From: Flammeovirgaceae bacterium
Lineage (GTDB): Bacteria; Bacteroidota; Bacteroidia; Cytophagales; MED-G16
DNA length: 24,274 nucleotides
Assembly: GCA_002702205.1 (NCBI GenBank)
Contig: NZYP01000046.1
Span: 1 to 24,274, forward strand
Reading direction: 5' to 3'
Below are positions 3,785-10,156 of the stretch, piece after piece. The number at the start of each line of letters is the position of its first letter. The stretch's first letter is position 1. The position numbers were made by a program, and so were the translations under genes. The notes beneath the pieces are model-generated. The model saw only the letters and a list, made by a program, of their open reading frames with translations. It searched no databases and was not told the origin of the DNA.

Positions 3785-4117
3785 TTAATCAGACTTATTT
3801 TTAATGTAATCGATTAGCTTATCACACAACTTATTTGTCTCTTTTGACATATATTCATCACCTGTCGAGTTTAAAATGCTCTGACCTAAACCACCGAGGC
3901 AGTCAATATAAAACTTTTTCATGTCGTCTGTCTTCATATCTTTTGTCCATAAATCAATTCTCAGAGTATTCTTTTTCTCCTCATCCCAGAGAGATAGGCT
4001 TATAGATTTTGTTTCTTTCAGGTCCTGACTCAAACTATCCTCAGCTACCCACTCTATCTTCTCGGGAATGTTTTTTTCATCTAGACCGACAATAAATTTA
4101 ATTTCTGACTTCTTCAT
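3785..4117 (-). CDS. gldC: Gliding motility protein GldC
   Basis: The product is 110 residues, matching the small cytoplasmic GldC family of Bacteroidetes. Recognisable family features are an N-terminal IKF-V-LDE-N-PEKIEWVAED segment (about residues 6-27), a central LSLWDEEKKNTLRIDLWTKDM stretch (41-61) that is the most conserved part, and MKKFYIDCL (66-74). GldC is known from flavobacterial gliding and type 9 secretion work, but its exact biochemical role is not established, and no other gld gene is in the window. The start codon (ATG at 4117) lies inside the 3' end of ribF, a 20-bp overlap, so the gene probably belongs to a truB-ribF-gldC transcript. Confidence 0.9.
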   Translation of the reverse strand: MKKSEIKFIVGLDEKNIPEKIEWVAEDSLSQDLKETKSISLSLWDEEKKNTLRIDLWTKDMKTDDMKKFYIDCLGGLGQSILNSTGDEYMSKETNKLCDKLIDYIKNKSD

Positions 4118-5042
4118 TTTCTATAATTTTTAGTGTTTCAATCTTATCTACTCTAAGCTGTTTGCTAAGTTCTTTTAAATTTCTAAACCTCTTCTCGTCT
4201 CTTATCCTCTTTAAAAAGCTAATTTCCATACTTTCTCCATATATTTCACTCCCATAATCAAATAAATTCATCTCAAGTCTTCTCTCACTTCCATTAAGTG
4301 TTGGTCTGAAGCCAATGTTTATCATGCCATAATATTTTTTATCTGATACGTAGGTAAAACCTGCGTAGACACCGTCTCTGGGAAGAAGCTTACCATCATC
4401 TCTTATTTCAATATTTGCTGTTGGAAACTCTAACTTTTTACCTATCCCGTCTCCCTTCACGACCTTCCCGGAGATAAAGTACCTGTATCCAAGCATTTGA
4501 TTTGTCTTTGAGATATCTCCTTCTTTTATTTTATTTCTTATCTCAGATGAGCTTATCTTTAGTTTTTCGCTTATCTCTTTTCTCTTCACTTCCTCAATTG
4601 AGAAGCTAAGCTCATCTTTTTTACCTGCTAGGTACTTGAAGTTTCCTTCCCTCCTAAAACCAAAGTGATGGTTATAACCAATTATTAGCTTATTTATTTT
4701 TAATTTTTTCTCTAAAATTTGATCTATAAAATCATCGGCAGTTACTTTAGAAAATTCTTCTGTGAATTCAATTAAATATAAAATATCGATACCAAACTTT
4801 TGAAGAGATTTGAACTTATCATCACTCGACTGTATAAAATCAAAATGATCATTAGGGTATAAAACCTTCCTGGGATGTGGCCAGAATGACACTAATATCG
4901 ATTTTCCATCATTTTTTTTTGCGTCAGAAACCAACCTCTCAATTATTTTCTTATGACCTAGGTGGACTCCGTCAAAATATCCTACAGTACATACGTTGTA
5001 TCTATTGTTCTCTACAAATGAACTATCTCGAATTATTTTCAA
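4098..5042 (-). CDS. ribF: Bifunctional riboflavin kinase / FAD synthetase RibF
   Basis: This 314-residue enzyme phosphorylates riboflavin to FMN and adenylylates FMN to FAD. The N-terminal FAD synthetase domain carries GYFDGVHLGH (21-30), GYNHHFGFRREGNF (122-135) and ISSSEIR (163-169). The C-terminal flavokinase domain carries GDGIGKKLEFPTAN (197-210), DGVYAGF (223-229) and NIGFRPTLNG (242-251). Length is normal. The start is TTG at 5042; no ATG lies between it and the first conserved motif. The TTG overlaps the truB stop as TTGA and is preceded by a purine-rich AAAGGAAAG, which supports this start and coupling to truB. The 3' end overlaps gldC by 20 bp. The fairly low-complexity, Lys-rich sequence is typical of this AT-rich genome. 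Confidence 0.95.
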   Translation of the reverse strand: MKIIRDSSFVENNRYNVCTVGYFDGVHLGHKKIIERLVSDAKKNDGKSILVSFWPHPRKVLYPNDHFDFIQSSDDKFKSLQKFGIDILYLIEFTEEFSKVTADDFIDQILEKKLKINKLIIGYNHHFGFRREGNFKYLAGKKDELSFSIEEVKRKEISEKLKISSSEIRNKIKEGDISKTNQMLGYRYFISGKVVKGDGIGKKLEFPTANIEIRDDGKLLPRDGVYAGFTYVSDKKYYGMINIGFRPTLNGSERRLEMNLFDYGSEIYGESMEISFLKRIRDEKRFRNLKELSKQLRVDKIETLKIIENEEVRN

Positions 5043-5728
5043 TACTTTCCTTTAAGGTTAAATTCAAATTCTTCAATGGTACTAGCATCGTCTACGTCAA
5101 AGTTACCTATTTTGGTTCTCCTAAGCTCAGAAAGATAAGCACCACAGCCCAGCTCTAATCCGAGATCTCTTGCCAGTGACCTGATGTATGTCCCTTTTGA
5201 ACAGGATATAGAAAAGTGAATGACTGGAAGTTTGATGTCTAATATATCAAAACTATTAACTTTTATTTCCTTCTCTTCAATTATCACTTTCTCATCTCTT
5301 CTGGCTAGTTCGTACGCCCTTTTACCGTTAACCTTTACAGCTGAGTATTTTGGAGGTCTCTGAAATTGAGTTCCTAAAAATGTCTCTGCTATATCTTTTA
5401 TTTTCTTCTCGTTAATGCCAGATAATGATTTAGTCTCTGAAACTTCTGTCTCTAGATCGTGCGATGGAGTAGTAGAGCCAAGAACAAACTTACCGGTATA
5501 TGTCTTGTCTAGGTTAAGGAACTCATTTATTTTTTTTGTGTGTTTACCAGTACAAATGATTAGAAGACCACTCGCAAGAGGATCTAAAGTTCCAGCATGT
5601 CCAACCTTCTTGCTTTTGGTGATATTTCTTATTTTCTTCACCACATCGAACGATGACCAATCAAGTTTTTTATCGATCAGAAGTGTATATCCTTCATTAA
5701 AATTTATATTTGAATCAATCATCTTCAT
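5039..5728 (-). CDS. truB: tRNA pseudouridine(55) synthase TruB
   Basis: TruB converts U55 of tRNAs to pseudouridine. From ATG at 5728 it is 229 residues, the usual size for Bacteroidetes TruB. The start region NEGYTLLIDKKLDWSSFDVV is the canonical family beginning. The catalytic motif KVGHAGTLDPLASGLL holds the nucleophilic Asp (residue 49), followed by KTYTGKFVLG, RPPKYSAVKVNGKRAYELAR and the C-terminal CSKGTYIRSLARDLG motif. A longer reading from TTG at 5746 is possible but adds six residues unlike the family; a second ATG is at 5722. The stop overlaps the ribF TTG. In many Flavobacteriia truB directly follows uppP; here a plus-strand pair of genes lies between the two. Confidence 0.95.
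   Translation of the reverse strand: MKMIDSNINFNEGYTLLIDKKLDWSSFDVVKKIRNITKSKKVGHAGTLDPLASGLLIICTGKHTKKINEFLNLDKTYTGKFVLGSTTPSHDLETEVSETKSLSGINEKKIKDIAETFLGTQFQRPPKYSAVKVNGKRAYELARRDEKVIIEEKEIKVNSFDILDIKLPVIHFSISCSKGTYIRSLARDLGLELGCGAYLSELRRTKIGNFDVDDASTIEEFEFNLKGKY
5045..5053 (-). promoter_or_regulatory. Shine-Dalgarno-like site supporting the TTG start of ribF
   Basis: On the minus strand AAAGGAAAG ends 2 nt before the TTG; the AGGA core (5051 to 5048) is 5 nt upstream. Most genes here have only A/T-rich leaders, so this site is unusual, and it coincides with the only non-ATG start that is tied to a 4-nt stop/start overlap (truB TGA within TTGA). It lies inside the last codons of truB. Confidence 0.5.
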
Positions 5729-5736
5729 AATGATTT

Positions 5737-5765
5737 TTGACAGCAAATTAAATCATTTAATTTAG
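5737..5765 (+). promoter_or_regulatory. Candidate Bacteroidetes promoter for the plus-strand island
   Basis: TTG at 5737-5739 and TAATTTAG at 5758-5765 are separated by 18 nt. This fits the Bacteroidetes sigma factor layout (TTG, about 19 nt, TAnnTTTG) with one mismatch in the -7 element. Transcription would start about 8 nt before the ATG at 5779. It sits in the 50-bp gap between divergent truB and the island. Confidence 0.35.
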
Positions 5766-5778
5766 TAAGAGAGAAAAC

Positions 5779-7164
5779 ATGGTCAGATATTTATTAACAC
5801 TATTTATTTTTTCATCATATGGCTTAATAGCTCAAGAAAACACCTATAGTGGACAAAATATAAATGTTAAACTTTTTTCTTCTATTAATTTAGAAAGGAA
5901 TTTTGGTGTTACTGATAATGAGATAAAACCTTATTTCACTGATGCACTAAAGGAAAATAACTTAGTTTTTACGGAAGATGATTATAACTATTATTTTTCA
6001 CTATCTCACGGCTGGAAAAAATCTAAAAAAATAACCTATAGAGTAGATAATTTCAGAGGACTACTAATTGAAACAGGCACAAATGGAATTGTAGCAGAGT
6101 TCAATGTATCCAAGACAAAAGACCTCCAAGAGTCTGTAAGTATTATTTTAGATAAACTAGTAGAAATGAATGCGGATAATACCGAGAAAAAATTTATTGA
6201 CATATCAGATCATTTTATGAAAATGGAAATGAACTCATGGGATTCTTCAAGACCTGACTCACACGCTCCATCAAGTATTCATGCAGACCACACACACATG
6301 AGAGGTGGAATCATGATCGGTTATAAGTTTTCTTTATCTGATAATAATAAAATTTATAAAGGAAATAAAACTGTATCTAATAATGTGCTCTTTCAAGATT
6401 ATGAGAATGTAATTGAGTCCAGTAATTTCTTATATCATTCTTTCGAATTTATGTATGGTCTTTCAGATAAACTGACAATTTTTTCTAAGTTTGATTATAT
6501 CGATAAGCAGATTACATATTCAGATATTAATTTAGATAAGTCAAATTATTTTTCTAGTGGCTTTGGAGATATTAACCTACAGTTTCTTTACAGTATAGTA
6601 AATAGGAGTTCTATAAAATTACATTCTAATATAGGTTTGGATTTACCTACTGGAAAGTTCAGGGGATCAGATCAATTGCCATATAATATTTTCACAGGAA
6701 AAGGCTACTTCAGCTCAATATTAGGTTTTACCAGTTTCTTTCAGTTCCCAAAAATCTCTGCAGGAATTCAGCCTATTATAAGTTTACCATTAAATACAAA
6801 TTCTAACAGTTTTAATTTGGGTTCTAGCATAGACATATATTACTGGTTCTCTCTGAAGGTTAACAACGTGATTAGTATCAGTTACAGTCAAAATTATATA
6901 AACCAAAGAAAGGTTAATGGGTCACCTCTTTTCTTAATCCCTGATAAAAATTCAGATTTTGATATTAGGAATACAGGGTATAGAATATTAAGTAATTCTT
7001 TTGGTTTAAATATATCCCCAGCAAAAGGAGCTCTTAAAAACTTTAGATTTTCAGCCGAATATATTTTACCTCTTTTCCAGTCATATAATGGTTATCAAAA
7101 TAGTAAAATAAATGATTTTATATTAAGTTTACAGTTAAGCCCAGGAGGTCATATGGGACACTAG
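5779..7164 (+). CDS. Putative outer-membrane beta-barrel protein with His/Met-rich motif (MetA-pathway/transporter-like)
   Basis: This 461-residue protein has a signal peptide (about 1-19, ending GLIAQ). Residues about 27-133 form a separate domain I do not recognise. A His/Met-rich segment follows: MKMEMNSWD (147-155) and DSHAPSSIHADHTHMRGG (160-177; His162, 168, 171, 173). The rest looks like a beta-barrel with SGFGDINLQFLY (260-271) and LHSNIGLDLPTGKF (281-294). The His motif followed by an SGFGDI/LPTG barrel resembles the family whose members carry a GDHxHxxGxxM-type motif (annotated transporter or phenol-MetA-like), some of which sit near copper-handling genes; this relation is from memory. 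The C-terminus GGHMGH is again His/Met-rich. A metal-related role is inference. It is followed after 2 nt by a lipoprotein gene. Confidence 0.7.
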   Translation: MVRYLLTLFIFSSYGLIAQENTYSGQNINVKLFSSINLERNFGVTDNEIKPYFTDALKENNLVFTEDDYNYYFSLSHGWKKSKKITYRVDNFRGLLIETGTNGIVAEFNVSKTKDLQESVSIILDKLVEMNADNTEKKFIDISDHFMKMEMNSWDSSRPDSHAPSSIHADHTHMRGGIMIGYKFSLSDNNKIYKGNKTVSNNVLFQDYENVIESSNFLYHSFEFMYGLSDKLTIFSKFDYIDKQITYSDINLDKSNYFSSGFGDINLQFLYSIVNRSSIKLHSNIGLDLPTGKFRGSDQLPYNIFTGKGYFSSILGFTSFFQFPKISAGIQPIISLPLNTNSNSFNLGSSIDIYYWFSLKVNNVISISYSQNYINQRKVNGSPLFLIPDKNSDFDIRNTGYRILSNSFGLNISPAKGALKNFRFSAEYILPLFQSYNGYQNSKINDFILSLQLSPGGHMGH

Positions 7165-7166
7165 AT

Positions 7167-7586
7167 ATGAGGTTACTATTTGTATATTTATTTTTATTTA
7201 TTTCTTGTAAGAGTGAGGTTAATACCCACCAATCTAACATGAACATTTTAGATGAAGTGATAACGACCCATGATGAGCTAATGGTAAAAATGAAAGATTT
7301 AAAATCATTAAAAAATAAACTTACTCAAGAGGGTATCGATCCTGAAAATAAGTTAGTCTTAGATTTAGATGAGGCAAGATCTTCCATGATGAATTTCATG
7401 AAAAAATTTAGTGAAGAATTTCAATATGATAAGTATCCAATGGATAAAGATTCATACCAAGATATTGATGAAAAAACTCTATCTATGATAAATTCTAAAC
7501 TAGAAATGCAAAAAAAGATGGTTCTAGAAGTTTCTGATCTTTTTGAAAATAGTATAAATAATGCCGAAGCAGCAATTAAGAAATAG
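7167..7586 (+). CDS. Small Met-rich helical lipoprotein of unknown function
   Basis: This 139-residue protein begins with a short hydrophobic signal and a lipobox-like LFISC (Cys14), so it is probably a lipoprotein. The remainder is predicted helical, with repeated Met and charged residues (HDELMVKMKDLKSLKNKL at about 35-52, SSMMNFMKKF at about 72-81, and a C-terminal helix rich in Glu, Asn and Ala). It resembles small flavobacterial lipoproteins that begin their mature part with a MDEVM-IHDEVMPKM-type stretch and have sometimes been misannotated as viral inclusion proteins; function unknown. The start lies 2 nt after the upstream barrel gene, so the two are probably cotranscribed. Its last codons overlap the 3' end of the uppP-vanX fusion by 11 bp on the opposite strand. 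Confidence 0.75.
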   Translation: MRLLFVYLFLFISCKSEVNTHQSNMNILDEVITTHDELMVKMKDLKSLKNKLTQEGIDPENKLVLDLDEARSSMMNFMKKFSEEFQYDKYPMDKDSYQDIDEKTLSMINSKLEMQKKMVLEVSDLFENSINNAEAAIKK

Positions 7587-9048
7587 AGTTCAAAGAATCT
7601 AAATCCTTAAAAGAATAATTCATCACCCCAGACTCGCATTCATTATAATTAAAATGCCACCATTCGAATTGGTAAACTGAAAAATTATTTTTAGTCATTA
7701 TTTTAATGAGTTCATCTCTTATCTCTCTTTGATATTTAGTCCCCCCTGTGTAAGATGGGTATGCCTTATCTGTGAACTCGTCGTATCCAGATATCATTTC
7801 AACTGGTGTTCCGTCAGATAAATTATAAAGACCAATATCAATTGCACAGCCTCTATTGTGGACGGAACCTTTAGAAGGGTCTGCTACAAAATGTTTTAAA
7901 TTATCTGGAGTACCCTCCCAAAACATTTTAGTTACAAACCAAGGTCTGTAAGCATCATATATAATTAACCCGTATCCCATCTCATTCAATTGTCTACTTG
8001 CATTTAAGATATTAGGGGCAGCGTCTTTATTTATGAATGCTCTAGCATCTTCATAAAAAACTGATTTCATAAAATTATTTTCTGATGAATATCTTATATC
8101 TAGTATCAATTTATCATCTAACTTTTCTAGGTCTACCATGTCTAAACCTGATTTTAAATCAAACTCAAAAGGAGGTTTAGAGTCTAATGCTATCTCTTTA
8201 ATTTTTTCAATAGGAAGAATTGGCTCAATTGAAAAACTTTCTTTTTCATTTTTTGTACAAGATGAAAAAACAGCAATTAGACCTACAGCCATACAGTAGA
8301 ATGAGAAATATATTAATTTACTCTCCCTTACTATTTTCAGCATAAGTTTGCATGCAAAAATGCCACTAAGTAAAGAGGAGGCAAATCCTACAATATAGGC
8401 AGTGGTTAAATTTTTGTTTATAAATATTTCTGGACCCTGAAACCCATCTACTATCTTAAGTATCAGTATTCCAAAGATTGGAACCAGCACCATCAAAAAT
8501 GAGAATCTTGTAGATTCCTTTTTATCAATATTTAGTAATAATGCAGTAGCTATGGTTGCTCCAGATCTAGATATTCCTGGCATTATCGCAAATGCTTGAG
8601 CTAATCCAATAATTAAAGCTTTTTTATAAGTTATTTTACCTTTAGAATCACTCTTAGAGTAGTTGGAAAGAAACAGAAGTATTGAAGTTAATATTAACAT
8701 TGACCCAACTAATAATATATTCCCCGTAAAAAGTTTTTCTACTTCATCTTCAAAGAGAATACCTATTATCCCAACTGGAATACTTGATAAAATGATTTTT
8801 GAAGCAAAGGAAACTTGTTTGGGTTCTAGTCTAATTAGTCCCCTAATTAGTTTAAATATATCCACTCTAAATACATAGAGTATACTAAATGCAGTTGCTA
8901 TATGAACTAGCATATTAAAAAATAAATTTTGTGAGGTATCAGTTTTAAGTAGAAAAGAAGTTATCTCAAGGTGGCCACTGCTACTGACAGGTAAAAATTC
9001 GGTAAGGCCTTGAATAATTCCTAGTAAAAGGGCTTCATACCATTCCAT
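7576..9048 (-). CDS. uppP: Fusion of undecaprenyl-diphosphatase (UppP/BacA) and VanX-type D-Ala-D-Ala dipeptidase
   Basis: One uninterrupted 490-residue frame holds two enzymes. Residues 1 to about 262 are a full-length UppP, an integral membrane phosphatase that recycles undecaprenyl diphosphate: QGLTEFLPVSSSGH (13-26; Glu17, His26), PGISRSGATI (157-166; Arg161), and a last membrane helix at about 245-262. Residues about 265-490 are a peptidase M15D/VanX domain: YDAYRPW (364-370; Arg368), SVHNRGCAIDI (395-405; zinc ligands His397, Asp404) and EWWHF (462-466; Glu462, His465). All key residues of both halves are present. The junction reads VFSSC (Cys264), a good lipobox, and Met236 (ATG at 8343-8341) precedes a charged then hydrophobic stretch, so an internal start could also yield a free lipoprotein dipeptidase. 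It follows the DUF3098 gene by 3 nt. The fused reading is what the sequence shows; whether one or two products are made is inference. Confidence 0.92.
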   Translation of the reverse strand: MEWYEALLLGIIQGLTEFLPVSSSGHLEITSFLLKTDTSQNLFFNMLVHIATAFSILYVFRVDIFKLIRGLIRLEPKQVSFASKIILSSIPVGIIGILFEDEVEKLFTGNILLVGSMLILTSILLFLSNYSKSDSKGKITYKKALIIGLAQAFAIMPGISRSGATIATALLLNIDKKESTRFSFLMVLVPIFGILILKIVDGFQGPEIFINKNLTTAYIVGFASSLLSGIFACKLMLKIVRESKLIYFSFYCMAVGLIAVFSSCTKNEKESFSIEPILPIEKIKEIALDSKPPFEFDLKSGLDMVDLEKLDDKLILDIRYSSENNFMKSVFYEDARAFINKDAAPNILNASRQLNEMGYGLIIYDAYRPWFVTKMFWEGTPDNLKHFVADPSKGSVHNRGCAIDIGLYNLSDGTPVEMISGYDEFTDKAYPSYTGGTKYQREIRDELIKIMTKNNFSVYQFEWWHFNYNECESGVMNYSFKDLDSLNSIS

Positions 9049-9051
9049 TTA

Positions 9052-9255
9052 CTATTTTCCCTTATGAAAAATTGCAAAAAACTGGAAGACAAAACCGAAT
9101 AAAACTACAAGAGGCCCAAGGGTCAAACCAAGGAAACCATAGCCGTATTCCTCCCCATCAACTGACATAATTATAAAACCAGAAACAATAATTAATATGC
9201 CTATAAGCATTAACTTATAATTTTTAGAATTAAAAGGCATATTTGATTTTTCCAT
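9052..9255 (-). CDS. DUF3098 family small membrane protein
   Basis: From ATG at 9255 the product is 67 residues with two membrane segments (about LMLIGILIIVSGFIIM and LGPLVVLFGFVFQFFAIF) and the family start MPFNSKNYKLMLIG. DUF3098 proteins are small, of unknown function, and in Bacteroidetes are usually encoded between ftsX and uppP, exactly as here. A TTG at 9279 would extend the frame into ftsX by eight residues; I prefer the ATG because it lies 4 nt past the ftsX stop and keeps the family N-terminus. Confidence 0.85.
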   Translation of the reverse strand: MEKSNMPFNSKNYKLMLIGILIIVSGFIIMSVDGEEYGYGFLGLTLGPLVVLFGFVFQFFAIFHKGK

Positions 9256-9259
9256 TATT

Positions 9260-10156
9260 TTAGTCGTAAAGCTCGTCAAGTGAGGAGTTTAAGTATTTAC
9301 TCACAGCCGAATAAGTACTTAAGATTACCATAATAACTCCGGTAAAAATAAGAGATATAAATATAACTCCTAACTGTTCTAAACTAATTATTAGATCAAG
9401 GTTATTTATTTTGTTATCAGCAATTTCTATAATTATATATAATAGAAAAGATGAAATTATACCTGAAATTAGTCCATAAATCATTCCTCTAATTATAAAA
9501 GGTTTTAAAATATAGTTTGCTGTAGCTCCTACAAGTTGCATGCTTCTAATTAGAAATCGCTGAGAGAATAAAGCAATTCTTAGTGTATTGTTAATTAGTA
9601 TAATAGATATAAATAATAGTATAACAAATAAGCCTATAAAGACAATACTTATGTTAGTTATATTCTTATTTATGTTGTTAATAAGTTCTTTCGAGTATTG
9701 AACTTCATAGACACCAGGAATTTTTAGAATATCAGACTCTATAATACTTAGTCTTTCTATATCAAAAAAATCAGAGTTTATCTTTAATATTATAAGGTCT
9801 CTAAGTGGATTATTTCCAAGGAAATCAACAAATTCTTCCCCAATTTCATTTTCAAATTTAGATGCAGCTTCATCACTAGAAATAAAAGATAATGTTTCTT
9901 CATTATTTGCGAGTGAATATTCCTTTGTGTAGAGAGTCCTTTTTATCTGCTCAACTTGACTAGTTGAAATTTTTTTATTTAAGTAGATATTAATTTCAGT
10001 GTTATTTTCAAGGAAACTTTTTACATTGAAAGAAGTTAGAAGAAAAAAAGAAAATAGCCCAAGTAATAGGAGAGAAAGAGAAACACTAAATATTACACTC
10101 AAAAATGGGAAATTTCCAAATGTTTTTTTTGCTATCTTCTTTCTCTCCTTATACAT
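9260..10156 (-). CDS. ftsX: Cell-division ABC transporter permease-like protein FtsX
   Basis: This 298-residue protein has the FtsX layout: a cytoplasmic N-terminus, TM1 (about 19-41), a periplasmic domain (about 42-165), then three more membrane helices (about 168-190, 220-245, 262-282). The segment [24 protein letters not shown] (189-212), linking TM2 to TM3, is the conserved FtsX signature. With the ATPase FtsE it activates peptidoglycan hydrolysis at the septum in other bacteria; ftsE is not in this window, as is common in Bacteroidetes where it lies elsewhere. It starts 5 nt after the pyrophosphatase stop and precedes the DUF3098 gene, so it is probably part of one operon with hppA and uppP-vanX. 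Confidence 0.93.

Follow-up and report, generated by a model that had tools for sequence, protein, structure and literature searches.

Does the window, meaning here the whole analysed stretch of 24,274 nucleotides (contig NZYP01000046.1 of the Flammeovirgaceae assembly GCA_002702205.1, positions 1 to 24,274), encode a genuine fusion of the undecaprenyl-diphosphatase UppP (BacA) with a VanX-type D-Ala-D-Ala dipeptidase, and on which side of the membrane would such a peptidase act? The initial annotation, made from the letters alone, had described a single open reading frame (ORF) joining UppP to an M15D peptidase. This ORF was found at 7576-9048; it is opened by ATG and lies on the minus strand, which the annotation had not stated, and the plus strand of the same interval is stop-rich throughout. 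Both Pfam domains were matched, BacA at residues 6-258 (expectation value (E) 1.7e-70; 238.1 bits vs. a cut-off of 33.4; profile positions 1-257 of 257 covered) and Peptidase_M15 (PF01427) at residues 303-469 (E 1.4e-26; 94 bits vs. a cut-off of 27). The gene is divided as follows:

7576..9048, minus strand: uppP-vanX fusion ORF, 490 amino acids (aa) and a stop, identified by Pfam, protein-database and family-genome evidence
8260..9048, minus strand: UppP/BacA part, residues 1-263, ending at about the same place as standalone UppPs
8257..8313, minus strand: final transmembrane helix of UppP, residues 246-264, closing with the lipobox-like VFSS-Cys264, from model and hydropathy
8152..8256, minus strand: linker, residues 265-299, a variable polar stretch followed by an FxIxP segment
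7642..8142, minus strand: VanX-type peptidase M15 domain, residues 303-469

A search of 5.8 billion proteins, of the kind that the initial annotation had proposed, gave 7880 matches, and both domains were present in all of the best 120 of these, at lengths of 485-491 aa. All 120 matches of a second protein listing, which overlaps with the first, were also two-domain proteins. The window's own Cytophagales family was sampled by 15 genomes of three genera (g1, g2 and g3), and 13 of them carried an uninterrupted fusion frame. These 13 genomes contained 14 BacA frames, all of which were fused, and no second BacA or M15D gene was found in them outside the fusion; genome G008 has two fusion copies, the second reaching its contig end. 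Two separate ORFs with a stop near residue 262, the arrangement named beforehand as speaking against a fusion, were seen in none of the 14 frames. Since 13 of 15 family genomes and every one of the 120 listed database matches share this fusion, it is neither a chance joining nor a frame error, and an assembly error at 8200-8300 is ruled out. The ratio of nonsynonymous to synonymous substitution rates (dN/dS) was 0.04-0.16 in both domains and 0.05-0.30 in the linker in eight of eight chosen genome pairs, and both halves appear from this comparison to be maintained. What is new here is a conserved, lineage-restricted joining of two known enzyme types, so that lipid-carrier recycling and (by fold) D-Ala-D-Ala hydrolysis, usually carried by separate proteins, stand in one chain. 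A literature search, which omitted most subscription papers, found no paper on a UppP-VanX fusion.

In 19 of 19 standalone UppPs from relatives, the chain stops no more than about 4 residues from position 263; the UppP half is therefore complete, with the added part beginning near residue 264. When aligned with the solved E. coli BacA chain 5OON, Glu17, Ser23, His26 and Arg161 corresponded to E. coli Glu21, Ser27, His30 and Arg174. All four residues were kept in 182/182 fusion rows of the alignment, which is a redundant set, and the PGxSRS motif was present. The fusion shares with E. coli BacA (PDB 5OON, 6CB2) its whole length, fold, Glu/Ser/His/Arg active site and C-terminal helix, and differs in the residue at E. 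coli Glu17, which is Gln13 in 182/182 rows, and in a C-terminal peptidase part of about 225 residues. In the peptidase half, His397, Asp404, Glu462 and His465 aligned with the zinc and catalytic motifs of VanX 1R44, which we take to be SxHxxGxAxD and ExxWH; the residues that the initial annotation had named in the two halves (Glu17, His26 and Arg161; His397, Asp404, Glu462 and His465) were therefore correct. His397 and Asp404 were kept in 182/182 rows and Glu462 and His465 in 181/182. The model of the peptidase half fitted VanX at 1.7 Å over 179 residues, far better than any other chain in the comparison, and the two share the fold, the zinc and catalytic motifs and the catalytic Arg (PDB 1R44, peptidase M15D). 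Judged by its modelled fold, the peptidase half is VanX-type, outside the NF033115 equivalog. The FxIxP segment of the linker also precedes many standalone VanX-type domains.

The side of the membrane was predicted from E. coli BacA. In the available part of one report, its active site and C-terminus are periplasmic, the latter shown by an active beta-lactamase fusion at Phe273, and whole BacA fused to mature beta-lactamase gave a protein with both halves active (PMC4641660). The accessible text of the BacA crystal-structure paper applies the positive-inside rule and assigns the two termini to the periplasm (PMC5852022). The fusion has four Lys or Arg in residues 233-244, before its last helix, in agreement with an outward helix. 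Because the C-terminus of E. coli BacA is periplasmic and the charges before the last helix fit, the added peptidase is predicted to be periplasmic, and the periplasmic dipeptidase of the initial annotation is supported as a prediction.

We consider that the ORF probably encodes a single bifunctional inner-membrane protein, consisting of a complete UppP and a periplasmic VanX-type zinc dipeptidase, which would have arisen once in the ancestor of the family. Its N-terminal 263 residues would dephosphorylate undecaprenyl diphosphate on the periplasmic side of the membrane, and the last helix of UppP would run outward, placing the C-terminal zinc dipeptidase in the periplasm. The most probable substrate of the predicted peptidase is free D-Ala-D-Ala (or a similar D,D-dipeptide) from wall turnover, and the alanine freed would be reused. 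The two predicted reactions would act on different by-products and so would not run in series; the fusion would keep the peptidase membrane-bound, close to where the wall is synthesised, and link it to UppP expression. If the peptidase is periplasmic and active, the handling of D-Ala-D-Ala would be coupled to the place of wall synthesis.

In enterococci, VanX is a standalone, cytoplasmic protein, whereas the peptidase of the fusion is joined to UppP and predicted periplasmic. PcgL of Salmonella is a standalone protein. It is a periplasmic D-Ala-D-Ala dipeptidase according to the available part of its description (PMC3760250) and resembles the fusion's peptidase in predicted location and reaction, a likeness of description and not of sequence. 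The available portion of another report gives VanX as a D-Ala-D-Ala dipeptidase and VanY as taking the pentapeptide and inactive on dipeptides (PMC6403190). A hydrophobic stretch lies near the N-terminus in 57 of 67 full-length-looking standalone relatives of the peptidase, so an exported life suits VanX-type proteins of this kind.

Several findings weigh against the bifunctional assignment. No copy was present in 2 of the 15 family genomes (62% and 87% complete), and some metagenome entries (P0121-P0134) fall short of the full fusion length, whether through truncation, a frame error or a contig end. The UppP half scored 173.4 bits against NCBIfam TIGR00753 (cut-off 217.5), and the other matched UppP models likewise fell below theirs; since Pfam, fold and active site fit but this cut-off is missed, the broad UppP/BacA family is assigned and the equivalog name is not claimed. 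A PAP2 phosphatase match occurred in 14 of 15 family genomes, so UppP need not be the sole such enzyme. The model of the whole fusion had a predicted template-modelling score (pTM) of 0.57, and the mutual placement of the two halves is therefore not fixed by it. The peptidase half scored 67 bits against the VanX equivalog NF033115 (cut-off 320) and 113.5 bits against the D-alanyl-D-alanine dipeptidase equivalog NF007557 (cut-off 176). As all matching NCBIfam UppP and dipeptidase models score below their curated cut-offs, the substrate names rest on fold and residues. These dipeptidase scores would also suit a C-terminal domain kept for another substrate (a D,D-dipeptide or the end of a stem peptide) or for binding, with UppP as the sole relevant enzyme. 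We regard this as improbable, because zinc-binding residues, catalytic Glu and Arg each persist in 181-182 of 182 rows and the fold is so clearly nearest to VanX among the chains compared.

Of all features of the fusion, the lipobox-like cysteine at its join is of greatest interest. The initial annotation had mentioned neither this cysteine nor its absence from about half of the representatives, and it was likewise silent on the probable origin of the fusion and on its confinement, as far as sampled, to one family. The cysteine raises the question of whether the chain stays whole, as the bifunctional protein would, or is a polyprotein in which, in members with Cys264, the last helix of UppP would be a type II signal peptide; Lgt would then lipidate the cysteine and LspA would cut, freeing a lipid-anchored dipeptidase. 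FbcH of Bradyrhizobium, a cytochrome b/c1 polyprotein cut by signal peptidase I and not II, is a works-like analogue for this possibility only, with a polytopic and then an exported part in one chain; the proteins are unrelated. Cys264 immediately follows that helix and lies no more than about 4 residues from where standalone UppPs end (19/19). Among 27 representatives (90% identity), the preceding residue was Gly or Ser in all, and Cys264 was found in 13, which fall on either side of the midpoint root and include members of g1 and g3. An LspA match was present in 15/15 family genomes, 14 above the cut-off and the other a 28-residue fragment, and lipoprotein-like standalone VanX-type relatives exist (L075-L079, L045, P0176, P0182, P0223 and P0225, by eye). 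However, the cysteine is replaced in the other 14 representatives (Ser 6, Phe 6, Leu 1, Lys 1; Phe in both g2 genomes), and residue 264 across the 182 rows was Ser in 113, Cys in 39, Phe in 25, Leu in 4 and Lys in 1. A cysteine conserved family-wide, as expected of a bacterial lipoprotein family, was thus not found, although the window's own protein has Cys264. Column 264 underwent 7 changes, vs. a linker mean of 6.3 (residues 257-290), and conserved lipidation was rejected because the cysteine is no more constrained than the linker average; column 263, which holds only Gly or Ser, underwent 3. The strict lipobox [LVI][ASTVI][GAS]C was matched in 4 of the 13 Cys-bearing junctions, or in 7 when Phe or Met was allowed at -3, and P0135 and P0230, the closest standalone relatives, resemble ordinary precursors and not lipoproteins. 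Overall, we judge the polyprotein unlikely.

Six Cys/non-Cys changes were needed at residue 264 on the tree of representatives, in which 11 of 24 inner branches were starred and 8 open; the Ser264 group formed one side of a branch (100/100). As Cys-bearing members lie on either side of the midpoint root, the pattern is most simply read as an ancestral Cys264 that was lost about six times, though the counts cannot separate gain from loss. It is doubtful that the family would hold both stages, from a cleaved polyprotein (Cys264, including the window's protein) to an uncut fusion in sister lineages that lost the Cys. We conclude from the aligned sequences that LspA-type cleavage would be unnecessary across the whole family, but may occur in the Cys-bearing members. 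The varying Cys264 provides a natural set of lipobox-bearing and lipobox-free proteins for asking whether signal peptidase II cuts after a polytopic enzyme.

A separate lipoprotein-like dipeptidase might also be produced from the same gene by an internal start at Met236, which is invariant in 182/182 rows and is exactly where the database entries P0121 and P0129 begin. The equivalent place is also Met in 19/19 standalone UppPs (L024 and L027 by eye), so the conservation of Met236 is a property of UppP and not evidence of an internal start, and the longest contigs of the P0121 and P0129 clusters are only 2.7 and 1.4 kb. Such a start is very improbable. Among other short entries, P0124, P0125, P0127 and P0128 (373 aa) are fusions without the first ~116 residues in which the UppP Glu/Ser/His motif is present; one of them occurs on a contig as long as 251 kb, so not every case may be due to a contig end. 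P0154, with an alanine-symporter-type start and a peptidase-domain end, has a single member, is likely a chimera and was excluded from use.

As far as sampled, the UppP-VanX fusion is confined to the window's Cytophagales family. In the order sample (291 genomes, 15 in the family), the strongest match from a non-family genome covered residues 1-263 only (E 7.1e-83); in the class sample (395 genomes), only the window's own genome reached 1e-75; and in the phylum sample (395 genomes), each 1e-60 match besides the window's own was to one domain. These samples share genomes. In the phylum sample, a few one-domain matches also take in the final helices of UppP; their frames are 255-270 aa long. A scan of named genomes gave 43 loci, 9 with this fusion (one cut by a contig end) and 34 with a one-domain match; the match ranges of L045 and L051 extend into UppP's end, in frames of only 252 and 315 aa. 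A viral scan for the fusion gave 0 loci. Because the best 120 of 7880 matches were listed and the genome samples lie within the window's own phylum, a distant independent fusion may exist. The named carriers were metagenome-assembled genomes labelled Flammeovirgaceae or Marinoscillum, and one match came from TMED290 (Cytophagales per NCBI). The 'tara' source tags on some matches and the isolate names suggest a marine habitat.

The fusion gene lies in a cluster with the following members:

9260..10156, minus strand: ftsX, the upstream cluster member (Pfam FtsX_ECD and FtsX; synteny)
9052..9255, minus strand: small DUF3098 membrane protein, flanked by ftsX and the fusion (Pfam PF11297, E 4.5e-11)
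5779-7164 and 7167-7586, plus strand: two convergent genes between the fusion and truB, found only in the family among ten loci compared
5039..5746, minus strand: presumably truB, directly after uppP in four loci outside the family (tblastn synteny)
4098..5042, minus strand: presumably ribF, after truB in three of those four loci (tblastn synteny)

In the four outside loci (L053, L084, L085 and L086), the order was ftsX, DUF3098, uppP and truB, then ribF in three, and the uppP and truB matches lay 2-8 bases apart. In six family loci (L033, L036, L039, L087, L088 and L089), a set in which some genomes are represented twice because two collections contain them, the VanX-type domain was fused to the end of UppP and the two convergent genes stood before truB. 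These two genes were unmatched at E 1e-4 in the four outside loci (tblastn) and had no Pfam match above a curated cut-off, the best of the second (E 0.0033) being below its own. DUF3098 held the same position in 4/4 outside loci and in 3/4 family loci tested (not in L088). In a 62-row peptidase tree, built by a quick method and with 25 of 59 inner branches open, the peptidase parts of 8 fusions formed one clade (Shimodaira-Hasegawa-like approximate likelihood ratio test (SH-aLRT) 99) beside P0135; the nearest relatives were P0135, P0230 and P0172. Descent from the order's own VanX lipoproteins L075-L079 was unsupported, as these stand apart in the tree. The position of the fusion clade, beside P0135 and away from those lipoproteins, suggests but does not prove that the added domain came from another lineage. 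The fusion would have arisen once, in the ancestor of this family: an exported VanX-type gene would have landed behind uppP in the ftsX-DUF3098-uppP-truB-ribF cluster and would have lost its own signal peptide, the last helix of UppP taking over export.

The gene at 7167-7586 has a lipoprotein-like start (by eye), and its frame shares 11 bases with the 3' end of the fusion. A GldC-like gliding-motility gene lies at 3785-4117 on the minus strand, beside the ribF-like gene (Pfam PF19937, E 5.2e-33). At 14 loci (L041, L042, L043, L044, L047, L048, L049, L050, L052, L056, L057, L059, L064 and L070), from Planctomycetes, Ignavibacteria, Gemmatimonadota and others, a VanX-type domain stands late in frames of ~780-1175 aa, possibly further fusions of this peptidase. 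Some shorter entries related to the VanX-type domain are named beta-lactamase-like LACTB by a source. At L082, in the same order, a VanX-type domain lies in a 511-residue open frame behind an alpha/beta-hydrolase lookalike (by eye).
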